From Moraxellaceae bacterium (lineage in GTDB: Bacteria; Pseudomonadota; Gammaproteobacteria; Burkholderiales; Rhodocyclaceae): a stretch of 64,000 bases of DNA. The notes under the pieces were generated by a model. The model made no database searches. It was given only the letters and a program-made list of their open reading frames with translations, and had not been told where the DNA came from. The DNA is taken from assembly GCA_031119205.1 (NCBI GenBank), contig JAVHYF010000006.1, forward strand, positions 62,001 through 126,000, in the 5' to 3' direction. Each line of letters starts with the position of its first letter. Positions within the stretch are counted from its first letter, which is position 1. Below are positions 1 to 19,269 of the stretch, in pieces. Position numbers and translations under genes: made by a program.

Positions 1-609
1 TGGAACGGTGACGCCCGCCTGGCCGTGCTTGACCCCGCCAACGGGCGCTGGCGCCCGGTTACCCGCCTGTCATGGTCCTTCGAACCACGACGTCTGCTCT
101 CCGCGGAATTCCTGTGGCGCTTCAGCGTTGCAGATGGCGCGCCTTTCAGCCTCGCGGCCACGCCGGGCGGGGTCCGCGCGGAGGGTGTCAGCCTGCAGGT
201 TCCGGCCCGCTTCGCGCTGGAGCGCATTCCCCACATGTTCGGCCGCGCGGGCTGGCGGGGCGATCTCAGCATCCAGATTCCCGGCCTGCTGTGCAGCTGG
301 CGCGGCCGCTGCGATGGCAAGGCGCAGGCCACCTGGCGTGGCGCAGCTGCAGATCTTTTCCAGGGGCGCGCGCTCGGCGACTACCAGTTGCTCGCCAACG
401 CCAGCGATGGCTCCGTAAGCCTTGCACTGCAGACGATCTCGGGTGACGTCCGCCTGAGCGGCACCGGCGAACTCGATCCCCAGGGGCGGCTGCGCGCAAG
501 CGGCGTCGTGGAGGGCGACCCGGCCTTCGTCGGACGGCTGCCGAACATCGCGGGCCAGTGGGTCACGCAGGAAAGTCCGGCGCGCTTCCGCTTCAACGTC
601 AGTTACTGA
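1..609 (+). CDS. gspN: Type II secretion system protein N (GspN), 3' part
   Basis: Open reading runs from the first base of the window to TGA at 607-609, so the N-terminus lies outside. The visible 202 residues are a beta-rich, soluble-looking stretch with alternating hydrophobic residues and no membrane segment. They fit the periplasmic part of GspN, an inner-membrane-anchored accessory protein of the type II secretion apparatus. GspN has no catalytic motif, so the call rests on overall resemblance (for example SLQVPARFALERI and the LSGTGELDPQGRLRASG stretch near the end). In betaproteobacteria gspN usually ends a gsp operon, which would lie to the left. Nothing downstream continues that operon. 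Confidence 0.6.
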   Translation, partial: WNGDARLAVLDPANGRWRPVTRLSWSFEPRRLLSAEFLWRFSVADGAPFSLAATPGGVRAEGVSLQVPARFALERIPHMFGRAGWRGDLSIQIPGLLCSWRGRCDGKAQATWRGAAADLFQGRALGDYQLLANASDGSVSLALQTISGDVRLSGTGELDPQGRLRASGVVEGDPAFVGRLPNIAGQWVTQESPARFRFNVSY

Positions 610-790
610 GCATCCACCGCGGCACCATGGACGCTTGGTCTTTGTCACGACCATCCGCTACCATGCGCGCCGTCCAGGCCGACTGCCGGACATTTGCATT
701 GAACCTGGCTGCCTCCTGCGGGCAGCGAAGCACAAGAACATCCCGCCGGCTCCGTATCGGGGCCCGACGGGACGCTGCGGGGAGAGACAG

Positions 791-3070
791 ATGTTGCGGC
801 AAGACACGACGGCACTCGCGCGTGCCGGAGAAGCACTGAACGAGCACGCAGGAATCGCCCCGGCCACGGCGCTGGACTACTGGCAACAGAAGCTGGCCGG
901 AGCCCCCGGCCTGCTGCAGCTTCCCACGGATTTCCCGCGCCCCGCCCGGCAGGCACCCGAGCGCGCCACCCATCACTTTGCGTTCGGCCAGGCGCTGGCC
1001 AGCGCGCTGCGCGGAGACAGCGCCCCTCTCACGCTGCTCGCGAACCTTGTTGCCGGGCTGTCCATCCTGCTGTCGCGCTACAGCGCCAGCGATGATCTGT
1101 GCATTGCATGCAGGGCAGACAGCCTCGCCGGACTCACCCTGCCGATCAGGCTGGCGGGCCCCGGCACAAGCTACGCGAATCTCGTTGCACACACCCGCAA
1201 CGGCCTCGCCGATGCGGCCACCCATGCCGGCGGCAGCATCGAGCAACTGGTGCACGATCTGGCAGTCCCGCTGACGGACAGTCACGCGCCGCTGGCGCAG
1301 GTCGGCCTCAGCCTGTGCCCCGCCGGTATGGCACCAGCACATGAGGGCGACAGGCTGGACCTGCATCTCGTGATAGCCGATGACGCCGGACTCACCACCG
1401 AGCTGCGCTACGACCCGGCGCTGTTCCGGGCAAGCACTGCAGCACGCATGGCTGGACATCTGCAGCAGCTATTGCAAGCAGCCCTGCAGGATCCCGACCA
1501 GCATCCGGCCCGCCTGCCGATGCTGACGACAGATGAGTACCGCCAGATCGTAGTGGACTGGAATGCGACGAAAGCACCGCTTCCCGTCCAGTGCGTGCAT
1601 GACATCGTCGAGGAGCACGCACGCAAGGCGCCGCATGCCCCCGCAGTCGTGATCGGCACACAGGCACTGAGCTACGGCGAGTTGAACGCGCGCGCCAACA
1701 AACTCGCGCGCTACCTCCGCGATCACGGCGTAGGCCCGGATGTACTGGTCGGCGTATCAGTCAGCCGCTCGCTGGACATGATCGTCGGCATGCTGGGCAT
1801 CCTCAAGGCTGGTGGCGCCTATCTGCCACTGGACCCAAGCTACCCGGCGGACCGACTCGCCTACATGGTGGAGGACGCACGCCCTGCCTTGACGCTCACG
1901 CAGGAAGCCCTGTTGCCGAAACTGCCGGCAATGGACGCGCCGGCCGTCTGCCTTGACCGCGACTGGCACGCCATCGCCGGCTACAGCGACGCAGCACCCG
2001 ACCCGACCGCCGGACTGCGCAACCTTGCGTATGTCATCTACACCTCCGGCTCCACCGGCCGCCCCAAAGGCGTTGCACTGGAGCACATCGGCCTGACCAA
2101 CCTGTGCCATACGCAGGCCGACGCATTCGAAGTCACGGCGGACAGCCAGGTGCTGCAGTTTGCCTCGATCAGCTTCGATGCTGCAGTGTCGGAAACCTTC
2201 GTCACCCTGAGTCGCGGCGCCTGCCTGCATCTGATCCGGCAGGAGTCACTGCGCTCCTCGCAGGAGATCCTCAAGGTGCTCGATCAATCCGCCATCACGG
2301 TGGTGACCCTGCCACCCTCGCTGCTATCAGTGCTGCCTGCGCATCCCTTGCCGGCTCTCAGGACGCTCGTGCTGGCAGGAGAAGCGTGGCCACCGGAACT
2401 CGCCCGTCTGTGGGCCCCGGGTCGCCGCATGCTGAATGCGTATGGACCGACCGAGGGAACGGTCTGCGCGACCTGGGCCCTGATAACCGAGGACGTCGCA
2501 CACAACGTGCCGATCGGTCGCCCGTTGCCGAACGTCACCGTGTACATCCTGGACGAGCATCACCAACCCGTGCCCGTGGGCGTACCGGGTGAGCTCTACA
2601 TCGGCGGCATCGGGCTGGCACGCGGTTACCTGAATCGTCCGGAACTCACGGCCGAACGTTTCGTCCCGCACCCCTTCTCCGGCAACAGCGGAGAGAGGCT
2701 CTACCGCAGTGGCGACAAGGCGCGCTACCTCCCGGACGGCAACATCGAGTTCCTTGGCCGTATCGACAACCAGGTCAAGCTGCGGGGATACCGGATCGAA
2801 CTTGGCGAGATCGAGGCCGCGCTCACTGCTCACCCGTCCATCCACGATGCTGCCGTCATGGTTCGTGAGGACCACCCGGGCGAGCGCCGACTGGTGGCAT
2901 ACGTGATCAGCGACCAGCCCCTGGAAGGAAAGCAGCTTCGCGCGCACCTCCGCCAGAGCCTGCCTGACTACATGCTGCCGCAGCACTATGTGCAACTTGC
3001 GGCATTGCCGCTTAGCCCGAACGGCAAGGTGGACCGTCGCAGTCTCCCCCCCCCGTTGCCTGCGGCCTGA
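791..3070 (+). CDS. NRPS protein: C-terminal lobe of condensation domain + adenylation domain, no carrier domain
   Basis: 759 residues. ATG at 791 follows GGAGAGA; in-frame codons back to 635 lack homology. Residues ~25-240 match only the second half of a condensation domain: ALDYWQQKLAGAPGLLQLP, an LLSRYSASDD equivalent, a worn C6 motif (THAGGSIEQLV for HQDxPFE) and SHAPLAQV (C7). The N-lobe with HHxxxDG is absent. Residues ~250-755 are a full adenylation domain: A3 YTSGSTGRPKG (417-427), A5 NAYGPTE (549-555), A7 YRSGDKARYLPDG, A8 RIDNQVKLRGYRIELGEIE and A10 lysine in PNGKVDRRSL (743-752). The protein stops there, so the carrier must be separate, probably the next gene. Aligned to GrsA by eye, the pocket residues read D-A-S-T-V-A-A-V-C-K, which suggests Phe/Tyr-like aromatic substrates. 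A run of nine C (3046-3054) sits at the end of the A domain. Confidence 0.85.
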   Translation: MLRQDTTALARAGEALNEHAGIAPATALDYWQQKLAGAPGLLQLPTDFPRPARQAPERATHHFAFGQALASALRGDSAPLTLLANLVAGLSILLSRYSASDDLCIACRADSLAGLTLPIRLAGPGTSYANLVAHTRNGLADAATHAGGSIEQLVHDLAVPLTDSHAPLAQVGLSLCPAGMAPAHEGDRLDLHLVIADDAGLTTELRYDPALFRASTAARMAGHLQQLLQAALQDPDQHPARLPMLTTDEYRQIVVDWNATKAPLPVQCVHDIVEEHARKAPHAPAVVIGTQALSYGELNARANKLARYLRDHGVGPDVLVGVSVSRSLDMIVGMLGILKAGGAYLPLDPSYPADRLAYMVEDARPALTLTQEALLPKLPAMDAPAVCLDRDWHAIAGYSDAAPDPTAGLRNLAYVIYTSGSTGRPKGVALEHIGLTNLCHTQADAFEVTADSQVLQFASISFDAAVSETFVTLSRGACLHLIRQESLRSSQEILKVLDQSAITVVTLPPSLLSVLPAHPLPALRTLVLAGEAWPPELARLWAPGRRMLNAYGPTEGTVCATWALITEDVAHNVPIGRPLPNVTVYILDEHHQPVPVGVPGELYIGGIGLARGYLNRPELTAERFVPHPFSGNSGERLYRSGDKARYLPDGNIEFLGRIDNQVKLRGYRIELGEIEAALTAHPSIHDAAVMVREDHPGERRLVAYVISDQPLEGKQLRAHLRQSLPDYMLPQHYVQLAALPLSPNGKVDRRSLPPPLPAA

Positions 3071-3368
3071 TTTGTTTGCGACTGCCGGAGCATGCTTCGT
3101 GGCGGCCCGACTCGTTTATTACGGTCGTTCGCGCAAACTGCGAAATACAGCTACCCGAAAGGGCAAACCCTCCGTTTGTCTGCGAATCAAAAATGCCACA
3201 CAGACAAAATTGCCTGCATACAAAAATTTGAGATAAGCTTATATGGCTTTGTTATGCAATTTAACTAACAAAGTATAGAAGAAACAAAAAATACCCATAA
3301 AAATCAATCAATTGCGCCTCGCTAGGTTGGCGCAAAACAATAAAAACAACAATAACAACGGAGGCGCC
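3071..3368. other. AT-rich intergenic leader before the carrier-protein gene
   Basis: About 300 bases without a gene, much richer in A/T than its surroundings from ~3130 on. It contains AAAATCAATCAA at 3300-3311, also found at 18985-18996 before another cluster gene. A weak sigma70-like pair, TTGTTA (3249-3254) and TATAGA (3274-3279), has a 19-base spacer and is only suggestive. A GGAGG ribosome site (3360-3364) ends the region. The A domain frame stops at 3070; the overlapping frame continuing to 3236 encodes no carrier-protein motif. Confidence 0.5.
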
Positions 3369-3707
3369 ATGAATAACGCTGAAAATAACAGCGATCTCTG
3401 TGACGTCGTAGAAAAAGAAAAAAAGAACACGGATACGCCTGACCATCTGGTGGTCGGCGCGAGGTCATCTTCCGTAGTCGAATCGCTGCGCAGCATCTGG
3501 CAGGAATTGCTGCATGTATCGGCTATCGACGACACCGATGACTTCTTCGACCTGGGGGGGGATTCCCTTGGAGCCATCAGGATGCTCGAACGGATCGGTC
3601 GTGAATTCGGTGAGGATCTGCTTGAACCGGACATCATCTACACCGCCAGCCGGTTCGGTGATCTCGCCGCAGCCATCACCGCAGCGCTCGATCAGCGCGA
3701 GCCCTGA
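3369..3707 (+). CDS. Stand-alone peptidyl carrier protein (thiolation domain)
   Basis: 112 residues; ATG at 3369 with GGAGG nine bases upstream. Residues 1-33 are an Asn/Lys/Asp-rich, probably disordered leader. Residues ~36-108 are a thiolation domain with DDFFDLGGDSLGAIRML; Ser66 is the predicted phosphopantetheine site. The LGGDSL form is typical of NRPS carriers, so this probably receives the amino acid activated by the upstream adenylation protein, which lacks a carrier. A run of eight G (3554-3561) encodes the Gly-Gly just before the active serine; slippage there would destroy the protein. No phosphopantetheinyl transferase is encoded in the window. Confidence 0.88.
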   Translation: MNNAENNSDLCDVVEKEKKNTDTPDHLVVGARSSSVVESLRSIWQELLHVSAIDDTDDFFDLGGDSLGAIRMLERIGREFGEDLLEPDIIYTASRFGDLAAAITAALDQREP

Positions 3708-4004
3708 AAACTTGAACACCTGTAGCGCCTGAGCCTTGTGTAGCACAGGGGTGGCTTCAACCACCCCACCTGAAACACCGCTGCCCTGATGCCGCCAGCC
3801 GGTCTCGAGTGCAGAGGCGCATGTCATTGGCTGCAACCCGGGCCATGACCTGCTGGTAGCGCCGGCGACGCCGAAGGCCCGCCGAGTTAGACGAAACAAC
3901 CCAACACAGCATTACCGCGACTCTGGATTGCGGTGGACCGCTGTCGGCCGCAAGCAGCGGCTAACGCGGACAGCCATCGGGTCCGTTCAGACGAGGAATG
4001 AGCC
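3708..4004. other. Intergenic region with one hairpin
   Basis: Roughly 300 bases between the carrier gene and the next adenylation gene. It holds a perfect 7-bp hairpin, GGGGTGG (3748-3754) and CCACCCC (3761-3767), with a 6-base loop but no T-run, so it may be a weak terminator or a transcript-stabilising stem. No convincing ORF or promoter was seen. A purine-rich GAGGAA ribosome site lies at 3993-3998, just before the next start. Confidence 0.4.
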
Positions 4005-5315
4005 ATGCTCCTGATCAGTAAAGCTTTCGAGAACTACGCCGAACGTCCCTTCCTGGATCTCGGCACTACGCGCAGCAGCTTTGCCGAGATCGGCGAGACA
4101 GCAAACCGCATCGCCAAGCATCTCAGCGAGATTCCCGATGCGCCCTTCGTGGTGGTGGACTGTGCGGATGTCCAGCGTTATGTCGCCGTCTTCTGCGCCT
4201 GCGTGATCGCCGATAGAACCGTCGTGCCGTTCAGCACGCTGAAGCTGTCTTTCGAAGACCTGTCCGAAGCCCTTCCCGGCTTCGTCTTCATCGACGACAA
4301 GGGCGACCTCTCCACGCACCAGGGCACAGGGCAGGCCCAACGCAAGAGCGGCGACGTGTACTGCCTGTTCACCTCCGGCACTACCGGCAAGCCCAAGGGC
4401 ATCCTCGTTTCACGCGACAACCTGGAAGCCTATGTCGAGGGCATTTCCGGATTCATCCCCGAGTACACGCAGGCGACGAGCATCTCAGCGGTGTTCTCGC
4501 CGCTGTTCGATCTCTTCTATCACGACCTGCTGCTTGCCATGACCTACGGCGCGACACTACAGGTGCCATCGCCACGCGAACGCATGCTGATGGCGGAGTT
4601 CGTGCAGTCGCGCAAGATCGATCTCTGGTTCTCCACACCGACGCTCGCAGCGAACATCCTGGCGGCGCGTGCGCGCATGCCTGCGGCGGCCGAGAAACCG
4701 GTATCCATCCCGGTCTCACTGTTCTGTGGCGAGCGCCTGGGTGCTGGCCTGGCGATCGACTGGCACGGTCTGGGCAAGGGCGAGATCATCAACGTGTACG
4801 GTCCTACCGAGACCACCATCGCGTGCACCGGCGAACGCCTTGACCTTGACGGTCTTGAGCCGACCTCGGACGTGTCCATCGGCAAACCCTTCGGCGGCAA
4901 TCGCGGTGAGATTTCGCCGCACGGCACGCTGCTCATCCGCGGTCCGCAGGTCGCACGCTACCTGCACAGCACGGAAGTCGAGTTCTTCGACACCAAGGAT
5001 CTCGTGTCCGAACAGGACGGCAGGTATTTCTTCCATGGTCGGGCCGACGGACAACTCAAGATCAAGGGCATGCGCATCGAGAAGGAAGAGCTCGAACGCG
5101 TTGCCTGTGCCGTGCCCGGCGTGAAGTACGCCAAGATCCAGACCATCCTGCAGGACGGTCTCGTCAGTGGCTTCAATGTGATCGTGGTGGGTGACGCACC
5201 CGCCCGCAACATCACCGAAGCCTACAAGCAACGTTATGGCGCCGCGCTTATGCCGAGCGGCGTCGAATTCGTCGAAGAGTTTGCGACAGGTACCTCGGGC
5301 AAGGCCCGGGTTTGA
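4005..5315 (+). CDS. Stand-alone amino-acid-type adenylation enzyme (AMP-dependent ligase)
   Basis: 436 residues, short for the ANL superfamily. It carries the P-loop-like A3 motif FTSGTTGKPKG, A5 as NVYGPTETT, A7-like TKDLV, A8-like GRADGQLKIKGMRIEKEE and a C-terminal GTSGKARV that ends at the catalytic-lysine motif. The A4 region reads FDLFYHD, retaining the aspartate that in amino-acid-activating domains holds the alpha-amino group, as in FDxSxxE. An amino acid is therefore more likely than a plain fatty or aryl acid. It is followed 14 bases later by a small carrier protein, so it most likely loads that protein. Compare free A/T pairs such as DltA-DltC or prolyl-loading enzymes. The substrate is not predictable from sequence alone. 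Confidence 0.8.
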   Translation: MLLISKAFENYAERPFLDLGTTRSSFAEIGETANRIAKHLSEIPDAPFVVVDCADVQRYVAVFCACVIADRTVVPFSTLKLSFEDLSEALPGFVFIDDKGDLSTHQGTGQAQRKSGDVYCLFTSGTTGKPKGILVSRDNLEAYVEGISGFIPEYTQATSISAVFSPLFDLFYHDLLLAMTYGATLQVPSPRERMLMAEFVQSRKIDLWFSTPTLAANILAARARMPAAAEKPVSIPVSLFCGERLGAGLAIDWHGLGKGEIINVYGPTETTIACTGERLDLDGLEPTSDVSIGKPFGGNRGEISPHGTLLIRGPQVARYLHSTEVEFFDTKDLVSEQDGRYFFHGRADGQLKIKGMRIEKEELERVACAVPGVKYAKIQTILQDGLVSGFNVIVVGDAPARNITEAYKQRYGAALMPSGVEFVEEFATGTSGKARV

Positions 5316-5329
5316 GGAGGAGTCCCATC

Positions 5330-5563
5330 ATGCTGAAGGATCGTATCGTCTCGGAACTGCTGGCCCATCGTGAGTCGGGCGTCATCAAGGTCGACAACGA
5401 CTATGAACTGGACTCGCTCGCCAAACTGGAGGTCATTGCCTTCCTGGAAGGCCTGAAGCCCGGGCTGCTGGACAAGTGCTTCAACGAAGTCGCCGACGCG
5501 AGCACGCTCGACGCGATCATCGTGGTCTTCGAGGCCTACGAGCCGGCGGGCGCCATCGCCTGA
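5330..5563 (+). CDS. Small acyl/peptidyl carrier protein
   Basis: 77 residues; ATG at 5330 preceded by GAGGAGG (5314-5320), chosen over an in-frame start at 5312 that lacks a ribosome site. ELDSLAKLEVIAFLE places the predicted phosphopantetheine serine at residue 29 in a DSL motif. The four-helix carrier fold is plausible, though the protein is at the short end for the family. The stop overlaps the start of the next gene (TGATG), so translation is coupled. Likely client of the adenylation enzyme just upstream and substrate carrier for the KASIII-like and dehydrogenase proteins downstream. Confidence 0.75.
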   Translation: MLKDRIVSELLAHRESGVIKVDNDYELDSLAKLEVIAFLEGLKPGLLDKCFNEVADASTLDAIIVVFEAYEPAGAIA

Positions 5564-6441
5564 TGTCGATGCAGCGGCTTCCCCGTATCCGCATCGACGC
5601 CTATCGCCGTCACAGTTTCCGTGAGCAACGCCCCGCCCCCACGGTGATGCCGTGGCTGGACAGCTATTACCAGGGAATGCTGGCGCCATATGGCATCCCG
5701 ACCGATCCGGTCCAGATGTCCATGGGGCGGAACAACAGCTTCCTGGCAATGGCGAGCCACGTCCTCCAGGAACTGCATGACGATTGCCCGCTGACGGACA
5801 CCGGCTTGCTGCTCATGGCGCACCAGACGCTGGATACGTTTCATCCCTTCCAGTCGACCACCACCCTGCTCTGTCGCGCATTCGGCATCGATGCACCCGC
5901 CGTTGCCCTGACCGAACAGGAGCGGAGCACACCGTGCATCGGCCTGACCATCCTGCTTGCAGCCTTGCGCCAGACGGACTTCAAGGGTGCCGGCCTGTTG
6001 CTGGTACTCGACCAGGCCACACAGCCGTATCGCGGTGACTGGCACCCGCAGGAGAGCATCGACAATGCGTTGGTCCTGCGCCTGAGGGCTGCCGGAGACG
6101 ATGCGGGTACAACGCTGGATGGCCGTCGCTTCTGGCGTGAGTCAGGGAACGCCGATCCCGCGTGGATCTCCCAGTGCATCTATGCCTGGCTGGATAGCGC
6201 GCGCGTCGAGATGTCCGCCGTCGATGTGGTGGCAGACCCCGCGTTCGCGGCGGGCCTTGTGGCTGAAATGCCCGGCGTGCGCGTGCATGAATCGCAGTCT
6301 TGCTATATGTCCAGCGCAGATCTCATGTCGGTGCTCGACAGACTGGAGGACGGTGCGAAGAACGTCTTGCTGACGCACCTCACCCGCGACGGACATCTCT
6401 ACCTGTTCCTGTTCCGCCAGGGGACGCAATGCTCTATCTGA
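5563..6441 (+). CDS. KASIII-like (thiolase-fold) protein, divergent
   Basis: 292 residues, start ATG overlapping the preceding stop. The layout follows a ketoacyl-ACP synthase III: LLLMAHQTLDTFHPFQSTTTLLCRAFGI resembles the N-half, and STPCIGLTILLAAL places Cys125 where KASIII has its active cysteine (AACSG). DNALVLRLRAAG is like the oxyanion/mid-domain strand. In the C-half the usual catalytic His and Asn positions appear lost: VVADPAFAAGL stands where a VxHQAN-type motif is expected, and CYMSSADLM where GNTSAAS is. It may therefore be a non-decarboxylating acyltransferase or a structural partner of the following KASIII-like protein, with which it overlaps by 13 bases. Family assignment is from strand-by-strand reading, not a search. 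Confidence 0.55.
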   Translation: MSMQRLPRIRIDAYRRHSFREQRPAPTVMPWLDSYYQGMLAPYGIPTDPVQMSMGRNNSFLAMASHVLQELHDDCPLTDTGLLLMAHQTLDTFHPFQSTTTLLCRAFGIDAPAVALTEQERSTPCIGLTILLAALRQTDFKGAGLLLVLDQATQPYRGDWHPQESIDNALVLRLRAAGDDAGTTLDGRRFWRESGNADPAWISQCIYAWLDSARVEMSAVDVVADPAFAAGLVAEMPGVRVHESQSCYMSSADLMSVLDRLEDGAKNVLLTHLTRDGHLYLFLFRQGTQCSI

Positions 6442-7355
6442 ACAAAGTTGCCAGCTACCTGCCGCCAGGTCGTGGCCAGGTCATGGAAATGGCCGGGGGC
6501 CTCCACCTGACGCCGGCCACGGCGACGCTCTACCAGAAGGTGTACGGACTCGACACCATCGCACTGGCCGAAGGCGAGACGCTGCGCGACCTGCTGGATC
6601 AGGCGCTGACACGCATCCTCCCCGTAGAGGATGCAGACCGGAAGCGCATCAAGTACATATTCCACTGCCATGCCGCACCTTGTGTGTGCCCTGCCGGCGC
6701 CGAACTCGTCAGCGCGCTGCAACGCAAGCACGGGTTGCAGCACGCCGTGGCGGTCGGGCTCGCGCAGGATCAGTGCGCGACGCCACTGACAGCCTTGCGC
6801 CTGGCAGAAGTACTGCTGGCAGACGAGAGCGATGACGCGCAGGTCCTCCTGCTTACCGGTGAAATCTCCTTCCAGGAGCGACTGCGCGTGATCCCCAACA
6901 CCACCATCATCGGCGATGCGTCAGCCGCCTGCCTGGTGGGAAAGCGCGGCGACCACAATGCTGTCCTGACGCTCGCGCAACGGAAGTTCGAACATGCCGC
7001 CGTGCAGCCGACCACGCCCGGCATACCGGTGCCCGCCACCAGTTACGGCGAGGACCTGATCCACGTGATCCGCGATGCGCTCGATGCGGTGTCGATGAAG
7101 ATCGAGGACCTCTCCCTGATCCTAGTGCACAACGTTAACGCCATCTCGTGGAAGTTCTTCGCACGCAACTTCCCCTGCTCGCCCGAACTGCTCTTCCTGG
7201 ACAACATCCCGAAGGCAGGCCATTGCTTCACATCGGACCCCTTCATCAACTACTGCGACGCAGTGCAGACCGGACGGCTCAAGCCGGGCGACCATTTCAT
7301 GATGGTGTCGGTAGGCACCACGTCCACGTTTGCGGCCGTCGTGCTGCGCCACTGA
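6429..7355 (+). CDS. KASIII-family condensing/acyltransferase enzyme
   Basis: 308 residues; start ATG 6429 lies inside the 3' end of the previous gene. Recognisable 3-oxoacyl-ACP synthase III features: Cys116 in DQCATPLTAL (nucleophile), IGDASAACLVG, His234 in ILVHNVNA (catalytic His) and a C-terminal LKPGDHFMMVSVGTTSTFAAVVL that matches the family's last strand pair. The third catalytic residue, Asn in GNTSAAS, is replaced by His265 (AGHCFTSD). Such changes are known in KASIII relatives that transfer acyl groups to O or N instead of doing a Claisen condensation (CerJ-type enzymes). Likely pairs with the upstream KASIII-like protein. The substrate is probably a carrier-bound aminoacyl or acyl group from this cluster. 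Confidence 0.75.
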   Translation: MLYLNKVASYLPPGRGQVMEMAGGLHLTPATATLYQKVYGLDTIALAEGETLRDLLDQALTRILPVEDADRKRIKYIFHCHAAPCVCPAGAELVSALQRKHGLQHAVAVGLAQDQCATPLTALRLAEVLLADESDDAQVLLLTGEISFQERLRVIPNTTIIGDASAACLVGKRGDHNAVLTLAQRKFEHAAVQPTTPGIPVPATSYGEDLIHVIRDALDAVSMKIEDLSLILVHNVNAISWKFFARNFPCSPELLFLDNIPKAGHCFTSDPFINYCDAVQTGRLKPGDHFMMVSVGTTSTFAAVVLRH

Positions 7356-7371
7356 ATCCCGGACTGCCCGC

Positions 7372-8580
7372 ATGCGCTCCGTTCATCTGACCGAGGCTCA
7401 CCATCAGTTCCGCGCGCAGGTCCGCGGCTTCCTCGATGAGCACATGCTGCCCTTCGCCGAGGCATGGGAGCTTGAGCGCGGCATGCCTCGACGTGCCTGG
7501 AAGCAGTTCGGCGACCACGGCCTGCTTGGCCTCGCGCACGCCACAGAGCATGGTGGCAGCGCACGAGACATCTTCCACTCGATCGTCTTTCTGGAAGAGC
7601 TCGGTCGCACAGGCTACGCAGGCGTGCGTGCCAGCGTCTCGCTGCATGCCTACATGGCGACCCACTACCTGGCCCGGCACGCAACAGCCGATCTGCGCGC
7701 GAAATATCTCGGACCCTCGATCCGTGGCGAGAAGATCGCTGCGCTCGCGATCACCGAGCGAGATGCCGGTTCCGATCTGTCCCGACTCGCCACGACTGCC
7801 GTGCGCGATGGCGACGACTACATCGTCACCGGCGGAAAAGTGTTCATCACCAATGGCGCCAACGCCGACTACTACGTCGTCGCGGTGCGTACCGCGACGC
7901 CTGACCCGCAGGTTCGCCGCGCCAACACCGGAGTCTCCCTGCTGATCATCGATGCCCGCGTGCCTGGCGTGACGATCCAGCGGCAGGAGAAACTCGGATG
8001 GCATGCAGCTGCCACGGCAGAGTTGCGGTTCGAGCAGGTCCGCGTCCCGGCAGACCGGCTCATCGGTCGTGAGAACAGCGGCTTCATGTACCTCATGCGC
8101 GGCTTCCAGCTGGAGCGACTGGTGGCAGCCGCCCTGGCCGTTGGAGGCGCCGAGCGAAGCCTCGATACGACGCTGGCCCACGTGACCTCCCGTCAGGCAT
8201 TCGACGGCAAGCTGTCCAGCCTGCAGGCCATCCGTCACCGGCTCGCCGACCTGACGACTGAGCTGGCAGGCGCCCGGGCGTTCACGTACCACGCCGCCTG
8301 GTGTTACGCAGAGGACGAACTCTCGGTCACCGAATGCTCGATGGCAAAACTGCTGAGCACCGAGCTCGCCTGCCGCATCGCGGACGCCAGCCTGCAGCTA
8401 CAGGGGGCGAGAGGCTATCTGGCAGACTCGGACATCGCTCGCATCTACCGGGATGCTCGCGCCGGCACGATGGCGGGTGGCGCGACAGAAGTCATGCGGG
8501 ACATCATTGCGCAACAGCTGATCGACCTCGGCCCCGCCCGCGAAGGACAACATCAGGCACGAAGTTCAGCCAAGGCCTGA
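7372..8580 (+). CDS. Acyl-CoA dehydrogenase-family flavoprotein, probably acting on a carrier-bound substrate
   Basis: 402 residues; ATG 7372 is 16 bases after the previous stop. It has the full acyl-CoA dehydrogenase layout: N-terminal helices, the FAD-contact region ALAITERDAGSDLSRL, the substrate/FAD beta domain with GGKVFITNGANADYY, and a C-terminal helical domain ending GGATEVMRDIIAQQL. At the place where short-chain enzymes carry the catalytic Glu (YEGTSE) the sequence reads AGGATE, so the base is either elsewhere or absent. In NRPS-type clusters, enzymes of this family oxidise aminoacyl-S-carrier proteins (for example the prolyl-PCP oxidases of pyrrole pathways). The position after an A/carrier pair suggests that role, but this is inference. 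It ends tail-to-tail with the following minus-strand gene, overlapping by 28 bases. Confidence 0.8.
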   Translation: MRSVHLTEAHHQFRAQVRGFLDEHMLPFAEAWELERGMPRRAWKQFGDHGLLGLAHATEHGGSARDIFHSIVFLEELGRTGYAGVRASVSLHAYMATHYLARHATADLRAKYLGPSIRGEKIAALAITERDAGSDLSRLATTAVRDGDDYIVTGGKVFITNGANADYYVVAVRTATPDPQVRRANTGVSLLIIDARVPGVTIQRQEKLGWHAAATAELRFEQVRVPADRLIGRENSGFMYLMRGFQLERLVAAALAVGGAERSLDTTLAHVTSRQAFDGKLSSLQAIRHRLADLTTELAGARAFTYHAAWCYAEDELSVTECSMAKLLSTELACRIADASLQLQGARGYLADSDIARIYRDARAGTMAGGATEVMRDIIAQQLIDLGPAREGQHQARSSAKA

Positions 8581-9851
8581 CCGATCCGTTGGTCGACGAT
8601 TTCCGCCGCCAGCGAGTCGTTGTTCGCGCCTTTCACCCCTTTGACCCAGAAACGGATCTGCGAGCCGGGGTAGACCCACCAGATGAATTTGAAATCATTG
8701 GAAACACGCGGATCGCTGCGCAGCGGATAAAGCGTGACCGGGGTTCCGAACATCGGGAAGTCATCCCGGACAGTGACATCCACCGACAGTCTGCCGAATT
8801 TGAGCGAACTGCCCTCCGGGGGAGCAGGATAGGCCGACCCGATTGCATGACCGATTTCCTGGACCGGAATCATCCCGTAACTGGCCATCGCCATGAAAAG
8901 TTCGCGGTGCATTCCACGCAAGCGTGTTAACGCCCCCGCTCCGGAGGACAAGTCCAGGAAAACCGGCATGGTCGTCGCAAGATGACCAACCAGCCCCGCC
9001 GCGCCGCTGAAATGGCGATTCGAGAACGAGCTGGTGAAAAACAACCCCTGACGATCGAGGGTGCGCGCGCCGGCCGTCGCGCTCAATAGCATCAGCAGGG
9101 TCGTCGGGCTGATTTTCTCGCGTTCGGCAAGGGTGAACAGCGCTGCACTCTCCTCGGCCTGCAGGACACGCCCGTGCATATAGGCGCCATTTGCGTCGCC
9201 AGCCATCTGCAGCATGCCGATACCACCCGCGATCCTGATGGACTGATGAATGCGCTCACAGACGCGTTCAAGTTGAACCTGGTAATCGCGGCTGGCCATC
9301 CAGGCGTTATGACTGGCGACGAAATCGGACAGCCTGCAGGACAACGGCGCGAAATCCGGCTCAACCCCTTTGAGATGGGCAAGGTAGAGCTCACTCAACT
9401 CCCACAGCAGTATCCGCATCGCTGCCAGATCGGCCAGCGCCTGCGCGACTGAAAACACGAGCACACAGCGTCCGGACGCGACCTGCAACAGGTGCACACG
9501 GGAGAGCGAAGAGGCTGTCGAATCAAAGCCTTGCGCAAACAATTCCGCGACCCGGTCATGCACAGCGGCGTCCTCCGCCGCATTCATCGACCAGTCTTCA
9601 AGCGTGAGCGTCAGCCCGACCGCTGAAGCCACCCGCCGCTCCAGGCCCTCTCTGTTGCGGACGAAATACGTGCGCAGCGCTTCATGCCGCAGGCCAAGAA
9701 GCAGCAAAGCCTGCCGCAATATCTCCGGGTCCAGACTGATATCGAACAGCAGGGCGCGAGCAAGGCCAGCCGCCTTTCCAGAGCGCAACTCCCGGTATTC
9801 GTGAAATGAGACTTCGCTGACAGACTCCGTCGTCGCAACCACATTGAACAT
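8553..9851 (-). CDS. Stand-alone condensation-domain protein with degenerate HHxxxDG
   Basis: 432 residues, the length of a complete condensation domain; ATG at 9851 has GGAGGCGG upstream on the minus strand. Residues ~12-65 resemble the acceptor-side N-lobe (FHEYRELR; LRHEALRTYF, as in HxxLRT). The active-site segment reads LVFSVAQALADLAAM (res. 131-145), aligning to LLLSLHHxxxDGxSM: both histidines are lost (Ala136, Gln137), Asp141 is kept and Gly is Leu142. Flanking text (RILLWELSELYLA) is standard. The protein probably cannot do normal His-catalysed amide formation; it may be a binding or gatekeeping domain, or work with the C-lobe fragment at 791-3070. Divergent from the di-heme gene across an AT-rich gap. 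Confidence 0.7.
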   Translation of the reverse strand: MFNVVATTESVSEVSFHEYRELRSGKAAGLARALLFDISLDPEILRQALLLLGLRHEALRTYFVRNREGLERRVASAVGLTLTLEDWSMNAAEDAAVHDRVAELFAQGFDSTASSLSRVHLLQVASGRCVLVFSVAQALADLAAMRILLWELSELYLAHLKGVEPDFAPLSCRLSDFVASHNAWMASRDYQVQLERVCERIHQSIRIAGGIGMLQMAGDANGAYMHGRVLQAEESAALFTLAEREKISPTTLLMLLSATAGARTLDRQGLFFTSSFSNRHFSGAAGLVGHLATTMPVFLDLSSGAGALTRLRGMHRELFMAMASYGMIPVQEIGHAIGSAYPAPPEGSSLKFGRLSVDVTVRDDFPMFGTPVTLYPLRSDPRVSNDFKFIWWVYPGSQIRFWVKGVKGANNDSLAAEIVDQRIGQALAELRA

Positions 9852-10644
9852 GGCTATTCCGCCTCCCGTGCGGTGTCATCCATTTCCACAACTACCGATC
9901 CGGCCCGGAGTCTAGTTTTCGATCTTCCTTCCCACAAGTCACGCCGGTCAGTCAGCTACGCAGACTGCAATCTATTTCTGTTGATTATCGTCTTTATCGT
10001 TTTACGCCACCTTCTTCAGCCGGCTTGAACAGCAATGAATTAAACGTTTATTTATAAAATTCATTGCGCAAGCGCACAACGACAAATTCAATAAAGTCAC
10101 CACAAACATACGTTCGTCATGTCATCCGGAAGAAATATTTGCTTCCGTTCGCATGTCCAACTAAAGTCCACCGACGCCGGAAAAAGCGTATTTTTCGGCA
10201 ATACCAATTAAAAAAATACGACAATTCAAACGGGGGCGCCGGATTCCCGGAAGAATGTCGCGGGCGGGGGACGATGGGGATGGAATTCTTGTCACGCGGG
10301 AGGCGGACAAGCGTAGCAGTGCGCGCTGCATTCAATCGGGCTTTAGTCCGCTTGAATGGCGAATCAATCCGGCCATCCGTGGCATTGGTGCCATTCCAGC
10401 CACGCCAGCCACTCCCTCTCGATGCCGCTCACGCGGTGCCCCCATTTCCCGTCTTTGCACCGCGCAGGCCCTGTTGCCCTTCGGCATATGCCCAACGGCC
10501 AGCGCGCGCCCGGCAGCCCTCTCAGTTCGTAGCACCCCTCGCAGCATCCTTGTCCCGCCCCAGCACAGCGCGAAACAGCGCCAGCCATTCTTCGCCGATG
10601 GCTCGCTGTGGCTTCTTCCGATAATCAAAGACGGCCCGCACATC
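9852..10644. other. AT-rich divergent regulatory gap
   Basis: About 790 bases without a supported gene between the divergent condensation-like gene and the di-heme peroxidase gene. From ~9950 to 10235 it is AT-rich, with a perfect inverted repeat at 10032-10067 and AAATACGACA at 10214-10223 (same 10-mer at 18995-19004). From ~10240 to 10644 base composition returns to high GC. That part has open frames in several phases, including one continuous with the di-heme gene, but no signal peptide or motif supports coding before 10645. Confidence 0.5.
10032..10067. promoter_or_regulatory. Perfect 10-bp inverted repeat, candidate operator
   Basis: GCAATGAATT (10032-10041) and AATTCATTGC (10058-10067) are exact inverse complements separated by 16 bases. 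The intervening DNA begins with another palindrome, TAAACGTTTA (10041-10050). Two arms about two helical turns apart (26 bp start to start) in an AT-rich divergent promoter region fit a dimeric or tetrameric regulator site. No regulator gene is adjacent. Confidence 0.4.
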
Positions 10645-12405
10645 ATGCCCATTACAAACAGAAGCAAGAATGTTCCAGCCTCGCTGCAGTCCTCGTTCCT
10701 GACCCTGGCTACCCTGCTGGTCCTCGCCGGTTGCGGCGCAGGCTCCGAGCAGAACGGCAGCGGCGCACAAGCCGGCCCGGCCGCCGCCGAAGCCGGCCGC
10801 GCGCAGATCGCCTCTGCGCCGGATGCTAATGGCAACTACCCGGACTGGCGCGGACTCTACCCGGACGCACAGGGGCGCTACCCTGACTGGCGTGGCTACT
10901 ACCCGGATGCACAGGGACGCTACCCCGACTACAACGGTCTCTACCCCGATGCAGAGGGCCGTTACCCTGACTACCGTGGTCTGTATCCGGACGAACATGG
11001 TCGCTACGCTGACTGGCGTGGCTTCTATCCGGACTCGACCGGGCAGTACCCCACGGACGCGCAGGCCAGCGTCATCAAGAACGAGTCCGGTTGGGCCCGC
11101 AACTACAGCACCGCCGGCTTCATCGACACCAGCACCAACAACCCGTTCTTCAAGCCCTTCGGCAATGGCCGCAGCTGCGGCACCTGCCACGACCCTGCAG
11201 AAGGTTTCACGGTCACGCCCAAGGGCCTGCAGGAGCGCTTTGCGCGCACCAATGGCGACGACCCGATCTTCCGCCAGGTGGACGGCACCAACTCGCCGAA
11301 CGCGCCGGTCGGCACGGTCGACGAGAAGCGCGCTGCCTACAGCATGCTGCTCGACAAGGGCGTCATCCGCGTCGGCCTCAAAATCCCCGCCAACGCACAG
11401 TTCGAACTCGTGAGCGTGCAGGATCCGTACGGCTACGCCAGCGCCAATGAGCTGTCGCTGTTCCGCCGCATCCTGCCCAGCACCAACCTGCCCTTCCTCG
11501 GCACGGTGATGTGGGACGGCCGCGAAAGCCCGCAACTGGGCCCCAACGCCACGCCGTACTGCCTGACCGGCAACCAGATCTGTTTCGACTTCCCGTTCAC
11601 CAACAGCCTGAAGATGCAGGCCCAGAACGCGACCACAGGACACGCGCAGTTTGCGCAAGGCCTGACCGCAGCGGAGCAGCAAGCGATCGTCGACTTCGAG
11701 ACCAAGCTGTTCACGGCGCAGGAGTACGACAACAAGGCGCAGTTCCTGATGGCCGCCAAAGGCAAGGGCGGCACGAAGGAACTGTCGAAGGTCGACTACT
11801 ACTTCGACATCAACGGCTTCCTGGACCCGCGCACCGGCCTGCCCGGCAACAAACTGACCACCATGCAGGTGTTCACGCAGTGGCTGACCAACCCCGGCAG
11901 CGCAGATCCTGCAGTGGCTGCAGCACGTGCGTCCATCGCGCGCGGCGAGAAGATCTTCAACACCAAGACCTTCACGATGGTCGGCGTGGCCGGCACCAAC
12001 GGCAACACCATCCTCAACGCCACCTGCACCAACTGCCACAAGACGCCGCAGGTCGGCAGCCTGTCGGTGCCCAACCTGTTCAACATCGGTGCCGCCGACC
12101 CGGCATGGAACCCGCGCAGCGATCTGCCGCTGTACACCCTGCGCAACACCGTGGTGGGTAGCGCGAACTTCGGCCGTACGATCCAGACCTATGACCCGGG
12201 CCTGGCGCTCAACACCGGCCGCTGGGGTGACATCGGCAAGGTGAAGGTACCCAGCATGCGCGGCCTGGCGACGCGTGCACCGTACTTCCACAACGGCACG
12301 CTGAAGACCGTTGAGGAGACCACGGACTTCTACATCCGCCGCTTCAACATGGTCATGACGCCGCAGGAGATCGCGGATCTCAACGCCTACCTGAAGACGC
12401 TGTAA
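10645..12405 (+). CDS. Lipoprotein di-heme cytochrome c peroxidase/MauG-family protein with YPD repeats
   Basis: 586 residues. ATG 10645 is chosen because it gives a lipoprotein signal peptide: positive N-region, hydrophobic LTLATLLVL, lipobox LAGC with Cys30. Residues ~61-138 are five tandem copies of a 14-residue unit (type YPDWRGLYPDAQGR), rich in Tyr, Trp, Asp and Gly. Then come two c-type heme sites, CGTCH (178-182) and CTNCH (461-465), and a C-terminal AP-YFHNGTLKTVEE region typical of di-heme peroxidases. The hemes are 283 residues apart, wider than the ~150 of classical bacterial CcpA, so this is a larger branch. Expected outside the inner membrane, anchored by lipid. Role: H2O2 reduction or MauG-like oxidation of a substrate. 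Ends in a strong terminator. Confidence 0.85.
   Translation: MPITNRSKNVPASLQSSFLTLATLLVLAGCGAGSEQNGSGAQAGPAAAEAGRAQIASAPDANGNYPDWRGLYPDAQGRYPDWRGYYPDAQGRYPDYNGLYPDAEGRYPDYRGLYPDEHGRYADWRGFYPDSTGQYPTDAQASVIKNESGWARNYSTAGFIDTSTNNPFFKPFGNGRSCGTCHDPAEGFTVTPKGLQERFARTNGDDPIFRQVDGTNSPNAPVGTVDEKRAAYSMLLDKGVIRVGLKIPANAQFELVSVQDPYGYASANELSLFRRILPSTNLPFLGTVMWDGRESPQLGPNATPYCLTGNQICFDFPFTNSLKMQAQNATTGHAQFAQGLTAAEQQAIVDFETKLFTAQEYDNKAQFLMAAKGKGGTKELSKVDYYFDINGFLDPRTGLPGNKLTTMQVFTQWLTNPGSADPAVAAARASIARGEKIFNTKTFTMVGVAGTNGNTILNATCTNCHKTPQVGSLSVPNLFNIGAADPAWNPRSDLPLYTLRNTVVGSANFGRTIQTYDPGLALNTGRWGDIGKVKVPSMRGLATRAPYFHNGTLKTVEETTDFYIRRFNMVMTPQEIADLNAYLKTL
10825..11058 (+). repeat. In-frame 42-bp tandem repeats in the di-heme gene
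   Basis: About five direct copies of a 42-base unit encoding YPD[W/Y]xGxYPDxxGR. The third residue pair of each unit varies (WRG, WRG, YNG, YRG, WRG), and the last copy starts with YAD and fades into YPTD. DNA copies are similar enough (TACCCGGACTGGCG, TACCCTGACTGGCG) to permit copy-number change by recombination. Confidence 0.85.
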
Positions 12406-12413
12406 GGCAAGCC

Positions 12414-12455
12414 AGCCGGGACGACACGGCAGGACGCCGTGTCGTCCCGGCTTTT
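12414..12455 (+). terminator. Rho-independent terminator after the di-heme gene
   Basis: A 17-bp perfect stem (12414-12430 with 12436-12452) with loop AGGAC is followed directly by TTT. It begins nine bases after the TAA of the di-heme gene, so the APS kinase gene downstream probably has its own promoter within the short gap to 12491. Confidence 0.85.
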
Positions 12456-12490
12456 CAGCAACACAACCCCGTTGGCATCACCTCTCACTC

Positions 12491-13030
12491 ATGAAAACTG
12501 ATCAAGGATGTGTGGTGTGGCTGACCGGAATCTCCGGCGCCGGCAAGTCGACGATCGCTTCCGCCATCGCGGCCAGCCTGCACGAGACCGGCAGGACCGT
12601 CCTGCCGGTTGATGGCGATGAACTGCGCGGTGGTCTCTCCAGCGATCTTTCCTTCACCGCGGCCGATCGTCTGGAGAACATGCGACGCGCGGCAGAGGTC
12701 GCCCACCTTGCAAGCAAGAGTGGACTCGTTACCGTCGTATCGCTGATCTCACCCTCGGCGCAGGGACGGCAGATGGTGCGCGAGCTGGTACGCCACGGCC
12801 GCTTCGCGATGGTCTACGTCAAGACACCGATCGAGGTCGCCGAATCGCGTGACGTCAAAGGCCTCTACAAGAAGGCACGCGCCGGCCTGATCGCCAACTT
12901 CACCGGCATCGGCTCGGACTACGAAGCGCCGCGCGACAGCGAGATCGTCATCGACACCACGACGACCTCACCCACCGCGGCAGCAGAACTGGTCGCGACC
13001 TATCTGCGGGGCAAGGGCTGGGTGGGCTGA
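12491..13030 (+). CDS. cysC: Adenylylsulfate (APS) kinase
   Basis: 179 residues, normal CysC length. It phosphorylates APS to PAPS using ATP. Visible motifs: P-loop GISGAGKS (res. 13-20), VDGDELRGGLSSDLSF followed by DRLENMRR (APS binding), the SLISP phospho-enzyme serine region, and VKGLYKKARAGLI. Stand-alone, without fused CysN, and no cysD/cysN or PAPS reductase is nearby. The next gene, on the other strand, is a PAPS-using sulfotransferase, so PAPS is probably made here for sulfonation rather than assimilation. A strong terminator follows. Confidence 0.93.
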   Translation: MKTDQGCVVWLTGISGAGKSTIASAIAASLHETGRTVLPVDGDELRGGLSSDLSFTAADRLENMRRAAEVAHLASKSGLVTVVSLISPSAQGRQMVRELVRHGRFAMVYVKTPIEVAESRDVKGLYKKARAGLIANFTGIGSDYEAPRDSEIVIDTTTTSPTAAAELVATYLRGKGWVG

Positions 13031-13061
13031 TCTCAACCCACTTCATCTCGTGAGACGAAAG

Positions 13062-13086
13062 AAAGCCCGGCATGCCGGGCTTTTTT
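13062..13086. terminator. Rho-independent terminator between cysC and the sulfotransferase gene
   Basis: An 11-bp perfect palindromic stem (13062-13083) centred on GGCATGCC is followed by a T6 run on the + strand, with AAA on the other side. It serves cysC (+) and may also stop the convergent sulfotransferase transcript, whose stop is at 13119. Confidence 0.85.
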
Positions 13087-13118
13087 GTATGCGTCGGACG
13101 TAGGCCTGCGCCAGACCA

Positions 13119-14027
13119 CTACCCGATTGCACCACCCTCCTTCAACCAGCGCGCGCAATCCTCTCCCAACTCGGCCCGTGCACGCGCCTCGTATTCTGCG
13201 ACGTCGCCCGCAGTCAGCGTATCTGCCCATCGACCGTTGACGCCCTTGTTGATGAACGTCTCTGCGCCGCCTGCAAGCCAGTCGCCACCGCCCCCGACAT
13301 GACGGGCGGCGTTCTGCTTCATCCAATCGAACGAGCAGTGATGCAGGATGGTCTCCCATTGCGGGCCGTCGACCGGGATGTCGAGGAAATCCGCGATCCG
13401 CCGTATCTCGCCGGCCATGTCGCGCTTCAGATCGACGAAGTGCACGAACATCACATTCGGCAGATGGCGCGCTGCCCACCAGCCACGCACGTTCTCCCAG
13501 AACGGCCACCACGGATGTCCATCTCCCGCCATCCATTCATGCCAGTACTGGTGGATGTCCGCAGTCGGCCGCTCGATCGGAGGCCCCACCAGACCCGGCG
13601 TCTTGTTCAGATTGTCGTACCACTGCTGGGTCGCGTTCGCGTGGTGGTTGTACATACTCCACACCACATCACGCCCGTCGCGTCCGATGTACAGGTACTT
13701 CGCCTTCGGCGAGAACACCAGTGCATCGATCGGCAGATGGGTCTTGATGAAGCGCCGATGGGTTTGTGCTTCCAGCGTCAGGAGTTTCAGCCCCTTGGAC
13801 GGATAGCGCAGGTCCAGCCAGGGCGAACGTTGTGCCACGTCGATGTCCGGGTCGCCATCGAAGACCAGTTGCGCCACGATCTGCTGCATCCAGGTCGTAC
13901 CGGACTTCGCGTAGGTCGCAATGACGATGTCGTCGTCGCGGAAGCGGAAGTCGTTCCACACCGTCGAATCGAAATGATGGTTTCTGAACTCGCGCGACTT
14001 CGCGGGCCAGGCAATCTTCTGGTCCAT
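13119..14027 (-). CDS. PAPS-dependent sulfotransferase
   Basis: 302 residues. It resembles the cytosolic sulfotransferase family: 5'-phosphosulfate loop YAKSGTTWMQQI, the catalytic-His region FIKTHLP, the 3'-phosphate site YIGRDGRDVVWSMYNH, and a C-terminal FINKGVNGRWADTL matching the RKGxxGDW coenzyme motif. It transfers sulfonate from PAPS to a hydroxyl or amine of a small molecule; the acceptor is not readable from sequence. No signal peptide, so it acts in the cytoplasm. Paired with the convergent APS kinase gene, which supplies the donor. A 7-bp hairpin (14066-14072/14088-14094) lies just upstream of its start. Confidence 0.9.
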   Translation of the reverse strand: MDQKIAWPAKSREFRNHHFDSTVWNDFRFRDDDIVIATYAKSGTTWMQQIVAQLVFDGDPDIDVAQRSPWLDLRYPSKGLKLLTLEAQTHRRFIKTHLPIDALVFSPKAKYLYIGRDGRDVVWSMYNHHANATQQWYDNLNKTPGLVGPPIERPTADIHQYWHEWMAGDGHPWWPFWENVRGWWAARHLPNVMFVHFVDLKRDMAGEIRRIADFLDIPVDGPQWETILHHCSFDWMKQNAARHVGGGGDWLAGGAETFINKGVNGRWADTLTAGDVAEYEARARAELGEDCARWLKEGGAIG

Positions 14028-14145
14028 GCCTCACCTCATGTGGTGGCAGGGTTGTGAAGGAGAAACCGGGCCGCGTCTGCACGACGAGGCCCGGCCGGAA
14101 AAGATAGCGACGCATCTACGACACGCCGCCAGAACAGCTGTCGGA

Positions 14146-14712: not shown

Positions 14713-14770
14713 GCCGAGACTCCTCCAGGGGTTTTATGGGTACTACCTGTGAACGACCTGCTAGTTGCGT

Positions 14771-17708: not shown

Positions 17709-17791
17709 CTCGGGTGAATCCTGTCAGGACTGCTTTATTCGTCGGCACAGCAAAGCACTGCGCCCCTTTTCATACCTGCCCCACGCACAGC

Positions 17792-18946: not shown

Positions 18947-19269
18947 CGGACTGGCATCAATCCGGCAGAAACCGTCGAAACAATAAAATCAATCAAATAC
19001 GACAGTCATGCCGGCAATTTGTTTTTATTTGTGGCTATTGACGCAGCGCGGACGGGAGGCTACAACCTCGGCGGCTCATAAGCAAGCTGGATATAGAAAT
19101 CAATAAACCGGCGTGCTTTCCGGAATTACCGCGGGTCCGGACGGGGTTATACGTATTACCGCTTCAGCAATCCTGGATTAACGAGATGGCAACAAATTCG
19201 CCATATTCCGGGACGCCATGACACAAGCCGACCGACGGCTACCTATTACAGAACGGGGAGGAAGATCCA
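18947..19269. other. AT-rich divergent intergenic region
   Basis: About 320 bases between divergent genes, AT-rich near 18980-19060. AAAATCAATCAA (18985-18996) recurs at 3300-3311, and AAATACGACA (18995-19004) recurs at 10214-10223. No perfect palindrome or convincing promoter hexamer pair was found. A GGGGAGGAAG ribosome site (19255-19264) precedes the + strand gene. Confidence 0.45.

Follow-up and report, generated by a model that had tools for sequence, protein, structure and literature searches.

The eight-gene cluster

We have analyzed an eight-gene cluster (positions 791-9851) in a 64,000-nucleotide stretch, hereafter the window, of contig JAVHYF010000006.1 (Moraxellaceae bacterium, GenBank assembly GCA_031119205.1). 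The genome that carries the cluster is 4.6 Mb in size, and the window is part of a single contig. At the center of the cluster are two proteins resembling ketoacyl-acyl carrier protein synthase III (KASIII), of which one (KAS2) retains the catalytic Cys and His and the other (KAS1) does not. The same pair recurs beside a free acyl carrier protein (ACP) in most related loci, and it is hypothesized to form amide bonds in a pathway whose loading enzymes and carriers are separate polypeptides.

A first-pass annotation of the window had described the locus as a fully split set of eight genes, and this description held. All eight frames are open, each has a single terminal stop and lies at, or within a few codons of, its earlier position, and Pfam confirmed the domains of all but KAS1 and the ACP-like protein (Table 1). 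The five genes at 4005-8580 follow one another with little space, and there are two overlaps among them: the start of KAS1 lies over the stop of the ACP-like gene (TGATG), and KAS1 and KAS2 share 13 bases. The 3' ends of the genes for the acyl-CoA-dehydrogenase-like protein (ACAD) and the condensation-like (C-like) protein overlap tail to tail.

Table 1. Genes of the cluster, with their positions in the window
Product	Position	Strand	Features
CA	791-3070	+	C-terminal condensation lobe fused to adenylation domain; Pfam Condensation 194-455/456, AMP-binding 3.8e-85, AMP-binding_C
PCP	3369-3707	+	Free peptidyl carrier protein, FFDLGGDSLGA; PF00550 2.2e-14; open reading frame check
A2	4005-5315	+	Short free-standing adenylation enzyme, 436 aa; PF00501 1.7e-34; best PDB match 4oxi, 4.8e-28
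ACP-like protein	5330-5563	+	77 aa, ELDSL motif; divergent; directly upstream of KAS1
KAS1	5563-6441	+	Thiolase fold; degenerate partner that lacks both Cys and His of the KAS active site
KAS2	6429-7355	+	KASIII-like; C116, H234, GH265...D270; PF08541 (ACP_syn_III_C) 4.9e-12
ACAD	7372-8580	+	Acyl-CoA-dehydrogenase-like flavoprotein; ACAD Pfam domains
C-like protein	8553-9851	-	Stand-alone, condensation-like; PF00668 33-321/456, 3.4e-17; lacks the catalytic His of HHxxxDG

The deviant active sites pointed out in the annotation are real. CA lacks the N-lobe of its condensation (C) part, which is followed by a complete adenylation (A) domain; KAS1 has Arg121 and no catalytic His; KAS2 has GH...D in place of GN; and the C-like protein reads AQALADL where three of the four C proteins compared from its own genome read HHLIWDG, HHIVGDM and PHIVSDA (the fourth was unaligned). 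The C-like protein, which lacks this His, may not be catalytic. Pfam and alignment with C domains of the same genome revealed no intact C domain in the cluster, and thus no canonical nonribosomal peptide synthetase (NRPS) condensation domain with HHxxxDG. As had also been annotated, no thioesterase or phosphopantetheinyl transferase domain was seen in the eight genes by Pfam; two matches to phosphopantetheinyl transferase families lie elsewhere in the genome.

A catalytic and a degenerate KASIII-like protein

KAS2 carries Cys116, His234-x-x-Asn237 and GH265-x4-D270, the last where FabH has GN. Cys116 and His234 occupy invariant columns of the KAS2-family alignment, and His265 and Asp270 occur together in 112 of the 117 sequences that have the Cys and His, window KAS2 included (the other five have Asn). 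The GH...D motif agrees with the Cys/His/Asp set given for AfcL and AfcO of the AFC-BC11 pathway discussed below. The single-chain KAS2 model (pLDDT 93) has a thiolase fold, and the nearest folds in Foldseek are NatS, ChlB3, DpsC and CerJ, of which ChlB3 is labelled an acyltransferase in the Foldseek listing and CerJ is an acyltransferase as well. Judged by its residues and model, KAS2 is probably a KASIII-like acyltransferase.

No Pfam hit was obtained for KAS1. Profile-profile comparison nevertheless matched its N-terminal half to the KAS2 family (96.6%, E = 5e-10), its model is confident (pLDDT 93), and Foldseek returned ChlB3 as the best PDB match (E = 1.1e-11, TM 0.67, root-mean-square deviation 9.2) and FabH as a further one; on these three grounds we assign KAS1 to the thiolase fold. 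In both alignments made, the Cys position is occupied by Arg121, and no His aligns to His234. The alignments used for the structures comprised 45 and 36 sequences, counting those from the window. When a profile of 45 partners was searched against the genome, the one strong hit was KAS1, and the one weak hit (1.3e-6) fell in a gene that also matches KASIII. KAS1 is, by sequence, the degenerate partner of KAS2 in a conserved pair.

Paired catalytic and degenerate KASIII-like subunits also make up PqsBC of Pseudomonas aeruginosa, with PqsB as the degenerate one, and the adjacent pair in the window is like it in this respect. PqsBC makes a quinolone by C-C condensation. KAS1/KAS2 could accordingly be a condensing heterodimer that forms a C-C bond, for instance by joining an aminoacyl or acyl thioester to a malonyl or beta-keto unit. 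PqsC is indeed among the sequence and fold matches of KAS2 (5dwz and 6esz in the fold list), but the sequence match is weak (E = 0.0045), NatS, ChlB3, DpsC and CerJ outrank it by fold, and those related enzymes whose product is known belong to pathways that make amides (PMC12186527, PMC7756342). We consider C-C condensation unlikely.

Conservation and distribution of the pair

A scan of GTDB genomes yielded 167 confirmed KAS2 relatives, of which the best 79 loci (labelled L with a number) were studied; these include close species and are not independent. KAS hits shorter than 150 aa were dropped. A partner was defined as a second KAS-like protein without the Cys or the His at the aligned columns, and a strict partner as one of at least 230 aa that has lost both; partners were called by residues because the KAS1 profile also collects KAS2 after iteration. 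A degenerate KAS1-like partner accompanies the KAS2-like protein in 76/79 loci, 71 of them strictly. Eight loci drop out of the strict count: L046, L062 and L096 have no partner and are short or contig-cut, in L083 and L102 one of the two catalytic letters is still present in the aligned column, and in L092, L094 and L099 the matched stretch is under 230 aa. Once partners shorter than 230 aa were left out, 73 of the 76 loci remained; in 63 of these the gene immediately before the partner encodes an ACP, an arrangement like that of the window. Conserved co-occurrence, which the annotation had proposed as the check on a single system, is thereby supported, and on these counts we reject the opposite outcome, scattered homologues without synteny. 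The counts suggest that a KAS2-type enzyme is as a rule accompanied by both a degenerate KAS1-like protein and a free ACP.

The nearest loci share 37% identity with KAS2 over all 308 residues (L031), 39% over residues 4-308 (L045) and 41% over residues 35-308 (L038, the best in the GTDB scan). In the phylogenetic tree KAS2 pairs, on long branches, with a Cohnella sequence (support 0.95). The two lie within a clade of 70 KAS proteins (support 0.99) that mixes decarboxylase-bearing with decarboxylase-free loci; genes for an ATP-grasp protein, a BtrK-like decarboxylase, an ACP and an ACAD are present in most of the loci concerned. Around KAS2 in the 79 loci, broad iterated profiles matched a BtrK-like decarboxylase in 67, an ATP-grasp protein in 63, an ACP in 72 and an ACAD in 63; the ACAD, ACADp and Adom profiles, iterated once, also match ACAD, CA and A2 of the window. 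None of the 12 loci without a decarboxylase, which were mapped gene by gene, showed the combination found in the window (tyrosine-like CA, PCP, AlmE-like A, KAS pair, ACAD, no decarboxylase). The window does have partial counterparts there, because an ACP stands beside the partner in five of them (L075, L083, L086, L087 and L100), two of which, L075 and L100, have a gene for a stand-alone C protein as well (both confirmed by Pfam). A further candidate for such a protein, L106 11251-12573, is by eye a transporter and was rejected, so that only L075 and L100 count. The KAS pair belongs to a widespread, partly studied family and occurs here in an unfamiliar combination.

The cluster could alternatively be decayed and non-functional, with the truncated C domain, the C-like protein, KAS1 and the divergent ACP as relics. 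Its deviant catalytic parts are in line with this, as is the scarcity of close relatives. KAS2-like proteins were found in 8/121 relatives (E <= 1e-3, mostly weak), 6/398 genomes of the phylum (1e-6), 2/399 of the order and 1/369 of the class (1e-10), in four overlapping sets that count the genome itself each time; outside that genome none of the four whole-genome searches returned a KAS2 relative above 29% identity, and none of 7 same-genus genomes has a KAS2-like protein. All eight frames are nonetheless open, the motifs of CA, PCP, A2, KAS2 and ACAD, read by eye, are kept, and degenerate KAS1-like partners occur across Actinomycetota, Bacillota and Pseudomonadota, which argues that the degeneracy of KAS1 is likely functional. 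Of the explanations considered here we rate decay the most improbable.

Among the papers listed by our literature search, none was on KAS1-like partners of the KAS2 family. Words with "dimer", "oligomer" or "subunit" are absent from the main texts of PMC12186527, PMC7756342 and PMC11204786, and a partner subunit therefore seems undiscussed there for AFC-BC11, bolagladin and the olenamidonins.

Several of the related loci are noteworthy in themselves. Plasmid-borne clusters with at least three KASIII-like proteins and degenerate partners were found in L027 (Rahnella aceris plasmid p2, 606-18277), L029 (A. vitis) and L028 (Tritonibacter); they also hold three AMP-binding enzymes, ACPs, ACADs and a P450, and two of them a type III pyridoxal phosphate enzyme. 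KAS2 matches occur in 10 Rahnella plasmid records. L030 (Burkholderia cenocepacia, 9292-19478) is a second, non-afc cluster with two ACAD-like proteins, an ACP, two KAS-like and two partner-like frames, an A protein and a BtrK-like decarboxylase; a short distance after it comes a frame which, by eye, looks like a LuxI-type gene.

Loading enzymes, carriers and dehydrogenase

The specificity code of CA was read by hand, against the GrsA pocket, as DASTVAAVCK, which we take to be tyrosine-like. The PCP is a clear PP-binding domain by Pfam. The closest solved relative of A2, 4OXI, is AlmE, a glycine-activating enzyme with the pocket residues D247, L248 and C316 (PMC11253843). D169, L170 and C241 of A2 occupy these places in the residue mapping (chain numbering offset 20), so that all three pocket residues checked are kept. 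As the DltA pocket likewise has D, L and C (PMC11253843), D-alanine is also possible as substrate, and A2 is predicted to activate Gly or D-Ala. The AlmE/AlmF system of Vibrio cholerae resembles the window in its free A protein with the D/L/C pocket (PMC11253843). It differs in modifying lipopolysaccharide, and Pfam showed no lipid A transferase domain in the eight window genes. AlmF is the small carrier of the Alm system, and the 77-aa protein encoded after A2 may be an ACP, a weak assignment made from its motif (ELDSL/DSL), size and position. We found no support for a specific orthology between A2 and the A proteins encoded next to KAS genes: it scores up to ~122 bits with these versus 124-129 bits with AMP-binding/NRPS proteins of unrelated plasmids.

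The window ACAD matches 2pg0 (E = 1.5e-82, 281 bits), 1ivh (5.3e-61) and 4irn (1.9e-47) in the PDB and falls under the cut-off of all 21 NCBIfam families listed. It is presumably of the isovaleryl-CoA-dehydrogenase type with the LERLV glutamate, and by motif it looks competent. A broad, iterated profile of the ACADs from the related cassettes matches it well (220 bits, 4e-65). A second profile, of an ACAD half, matched 61/79 loci, which is an upper bound because this profile also matches ordinary ACADs. Beside the cassette ACAD, some loci encode a protein of 200-240 aa (L033 15731-16453, L092 3477-4127, L028 8407-9057), with no Pfam match in the two tested; by eye it resembles a degenerate ACAD half, and perhaps forms a second pair with a dead partner.

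The company of A, PCP, ACAD, ACP and KASIII resembles the CloN1-CloN7 set. The ACAD might by analogy oxidize a PCP-bound amino acid, as in pyrrole formation, and the KAS pair would move it from PCP to ACP, a transfer like that made by CloN2 in aminocoumarin pathways. Partial matches to prolyl-carrier dehydrogenases (4irn as above; RedW 204 bits, PigA 194 bits) lend themselves to this idea. The RedW and PigA scores are, however, far under their cut-offs of 650 and 500 bits, the hand-read CA code appears tyrosine-like rather than proline-like, and KAS1 and A2 would have no place. We therefore regard the prolyl-PCP reading as weak, and more improbable than C-C condensation by the pair.

Relation to characterized pathways

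According to the annotation, no characterized pathway was known with such a set. That none is close was not supported, since this KAS type also occurs together with a free ACP, a loader and a dehydrogenase in AFC-BC11 and, to judge by gene sets, in the bolagladin and autucedine/olenamidonin pathways. KAS2 resembles the KASIII-like enzymes of AFC-BC11 and, again going by gene sets, probably those of the other pathways. The afc cluster of the Burkholderia cepacia complex has, like the window, a free A protein, a free carrier, KASIII-like Cys/His/Asp proteins, ACAD-like enzymes and peptide bonds made, in the window putatively, without C domains; unlike the window, it has a VinN-type A for Asp, a decarboxylase, FAAL, fatty-chain genes and a single carrier (PMC12186527). 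AfcL takes beta-alanyl peptides in vitro as a covalent conjugate and hands the tripeptide to Lys-CoA without C domains, and deletion of afcL and afcO abolishes the product (PMC12186527). The earlier suggestion that the KASIII-like pair joins or releases the loaded residues fits this transfer of a peptidyl chain. In an afc-like locus of B. cenocepacia (L112), the KAS directly before the decarboxylase, taken by gene order to be AfcO, matches the KAS2-family profile at 9.8e-41 and reads GHACCSD. A frame at L112 12263-13210 with GHAFGSDPW, missed by both the KAS2 and KAS1 profiles, may be AfcL or AfcM.

The bol cluster of Burkholderia gladioli shares a free A, a free ACP, an ACAD and two KASIII homologues with the window, although the bol homologues have the Cys changed, and differs in its BtrK-like decarboxylase, citrate-primed fatty acid and tetramodular NRPS (PMC7756342). 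Either BolM or BolP (Cys to Ser or Thr) is proposed there to join beta-alanyl-ACP to a fatty acyl thioester; when the ACAD gene bolQ was deleted, the saturated product resulted (PMC7756342). In the Streptomyces autucedine and olenamidonin clusters, the 3-oxoacyl-ACP synthases AutS and OleH are proposed to acylate a carrier-bound amine, ligating acyl-CoAs to the carrier-bound residue; these clusters build a multi-residue lipopeptide from a carrier-bound DHA residue, whereas the window has no megasynthase (PMC11204786). BolM/BolP and AutS/OleH probably belong to the KAS2 subfamily, to judge by the gene sets of the related loci. By analogy, what these pathways have in common is that an amide is formed at an amine bound to a carrier or to CoA.

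The window could encode an N-acyl-dehydroamino-acid starter of the bolagladin/autucedine type, in which A2 would load beta-alanine or a similar residue, the KAS pair would N-acylate it with a fatty acyl-CoA, ACAD would make an enamide and CA/PCP, as a short NRPS module, would add tyrosine. The KAS2 clade, the ACP-KAS adjacency, the 220-bit match of the cassette-ACAD profile and the precedent of BolQ (PMC7756342) are consistent with such a route. The A2 pocket is instead of the alpha-amino, AlmE/DltA-like kind, with AlmE as the best solved relative, no decarboxylase or ATP-grasp hit was obtained in positions 1-10500 of the window, and the sole C protein has no His. This route is doubtful, if less so than the C-C condensation considered above.

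Proposed pathway

We favor a split thiotemplated pathway whose product would be a small acyl-amino-acid or dipeptide and in which an ACP-bound Gly (or D-Ala) would receive its amide bond from the KAS pair. We assign this reading a probability of roughly 45%. The data show the genes, their predicted folds and residues, and a KAS pair conserved together with a free ACP in related loci; for substrates, order, chemistry, complex formation, product and release we infer the following. CA would load an aromatic amino acid, as its tyrosine-like code suggests, on the free PCP, and A2 would load glycine or D-alanine on the small ACP. The window lacks the genes for beta-alanine, with neither an ATP-grasp or VinN-type loader nor a BtrK-like decarboxylase, and for this reason glycine (or D-alanine) is the residue that A2 would offer for acylation by the pair. 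KAS2 as catalyst, with KAS1 as a dead structural partner, would accept an acyl or aminoacyl chain on Cys116 and transfer it to the amine of the residue carried by the ACP. The KAS pair, not a C domain, would then make the amide. The flavoprotein would desaturate a carrier-bound residue. The C-like protein may be a binding or scaffold protein, or catalyze another step without the usual His.

The acyl group put on the A2-loaded residue is perhaps tyrosyl. In this more specific and rather speculative form, which we hold slightly less doubtful than the bolagladin/autucedine-type starter, KAS2 and the dead KAS1 would replace the C domain and join tyrosyl-PCP with glycyl-ACP (or D-alanyl-ACP), the flavoprotein giving a dehydro residue.

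Several observations weigh against the favored pathway. Glycine cannot be desaturated, and ACAD must therefore act on another residue or A2 have another substrate. The window ACAD may not belong with the cassette ACADs: pairwise it scores mostly 41-86 bits with them, and 159 and 211 bits in two loci, compared with 281 bits for the generic 2pg0, although the iterated cassette profile gives 220 bits. The 77-aa protein matched no Pfam family up to E = 10, the PP-binding profile included; with the ACPs of related loci it gives a weak, motif-level match (E = 0.002), and it is too divergent for a match between profiles (hhalign probability 2.2%). The fit of KAS1 to known KASIII folds is moderate (TM 0.67). 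Searches of positions 1-10500 gave no hit for the decarboxylase or ATP-grasp; the window thus has no counterpart of the decarboxylase or of the loader, be it ATP-grasp or VinN-type A, that the lipopeptide cassettes contain. In the afc-like B. cenocepacia locus no KAS1-like partner was found at E <= 10, and a partner may thus not always be needed. The earlier interpretation, taken as a whole, is partly supported.

In 2025 a KASIII-like enzyme of the AFC-BC11 pathway was reported to form amides without a C domain (PMC12186527). The same chemistry has been proposed for a few other lipopeptides. If the more specific form of our proposal is right, the cluster would extend it to dipeptides built from two alpha-amino acids, each on a free carrier of its own, and the degenerate partner would be an obligate but unrecognized subunit in a KAS family with members in Actinomycetota, Bacillota and Pseudomonadota. 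With a KAS unit, an AlmE-like loader and a separate tyrosine-type module, the cluster offers a compact eight-gene test case without megasynthases.

Surroundings of the cluster

Upstream of the cluster lie apparent type II secretion genes, recognized by eye and gene order, and downstream, from position 10255, a frame that by eye resembles a cytochrome peroxidase (10255-12405). We delimit the cluster at 791-9851 because of these flanks. The downstream gene used as an insertion-site marker found no match at E <= 1e-40 in the 7 same-genus genomes. Near the N-terminus of the cytochrome-peroxidase-like frame, a 42-base tandem repeat (10836-11034, 4.7 copies) encodes YPDxxG-type repeats.

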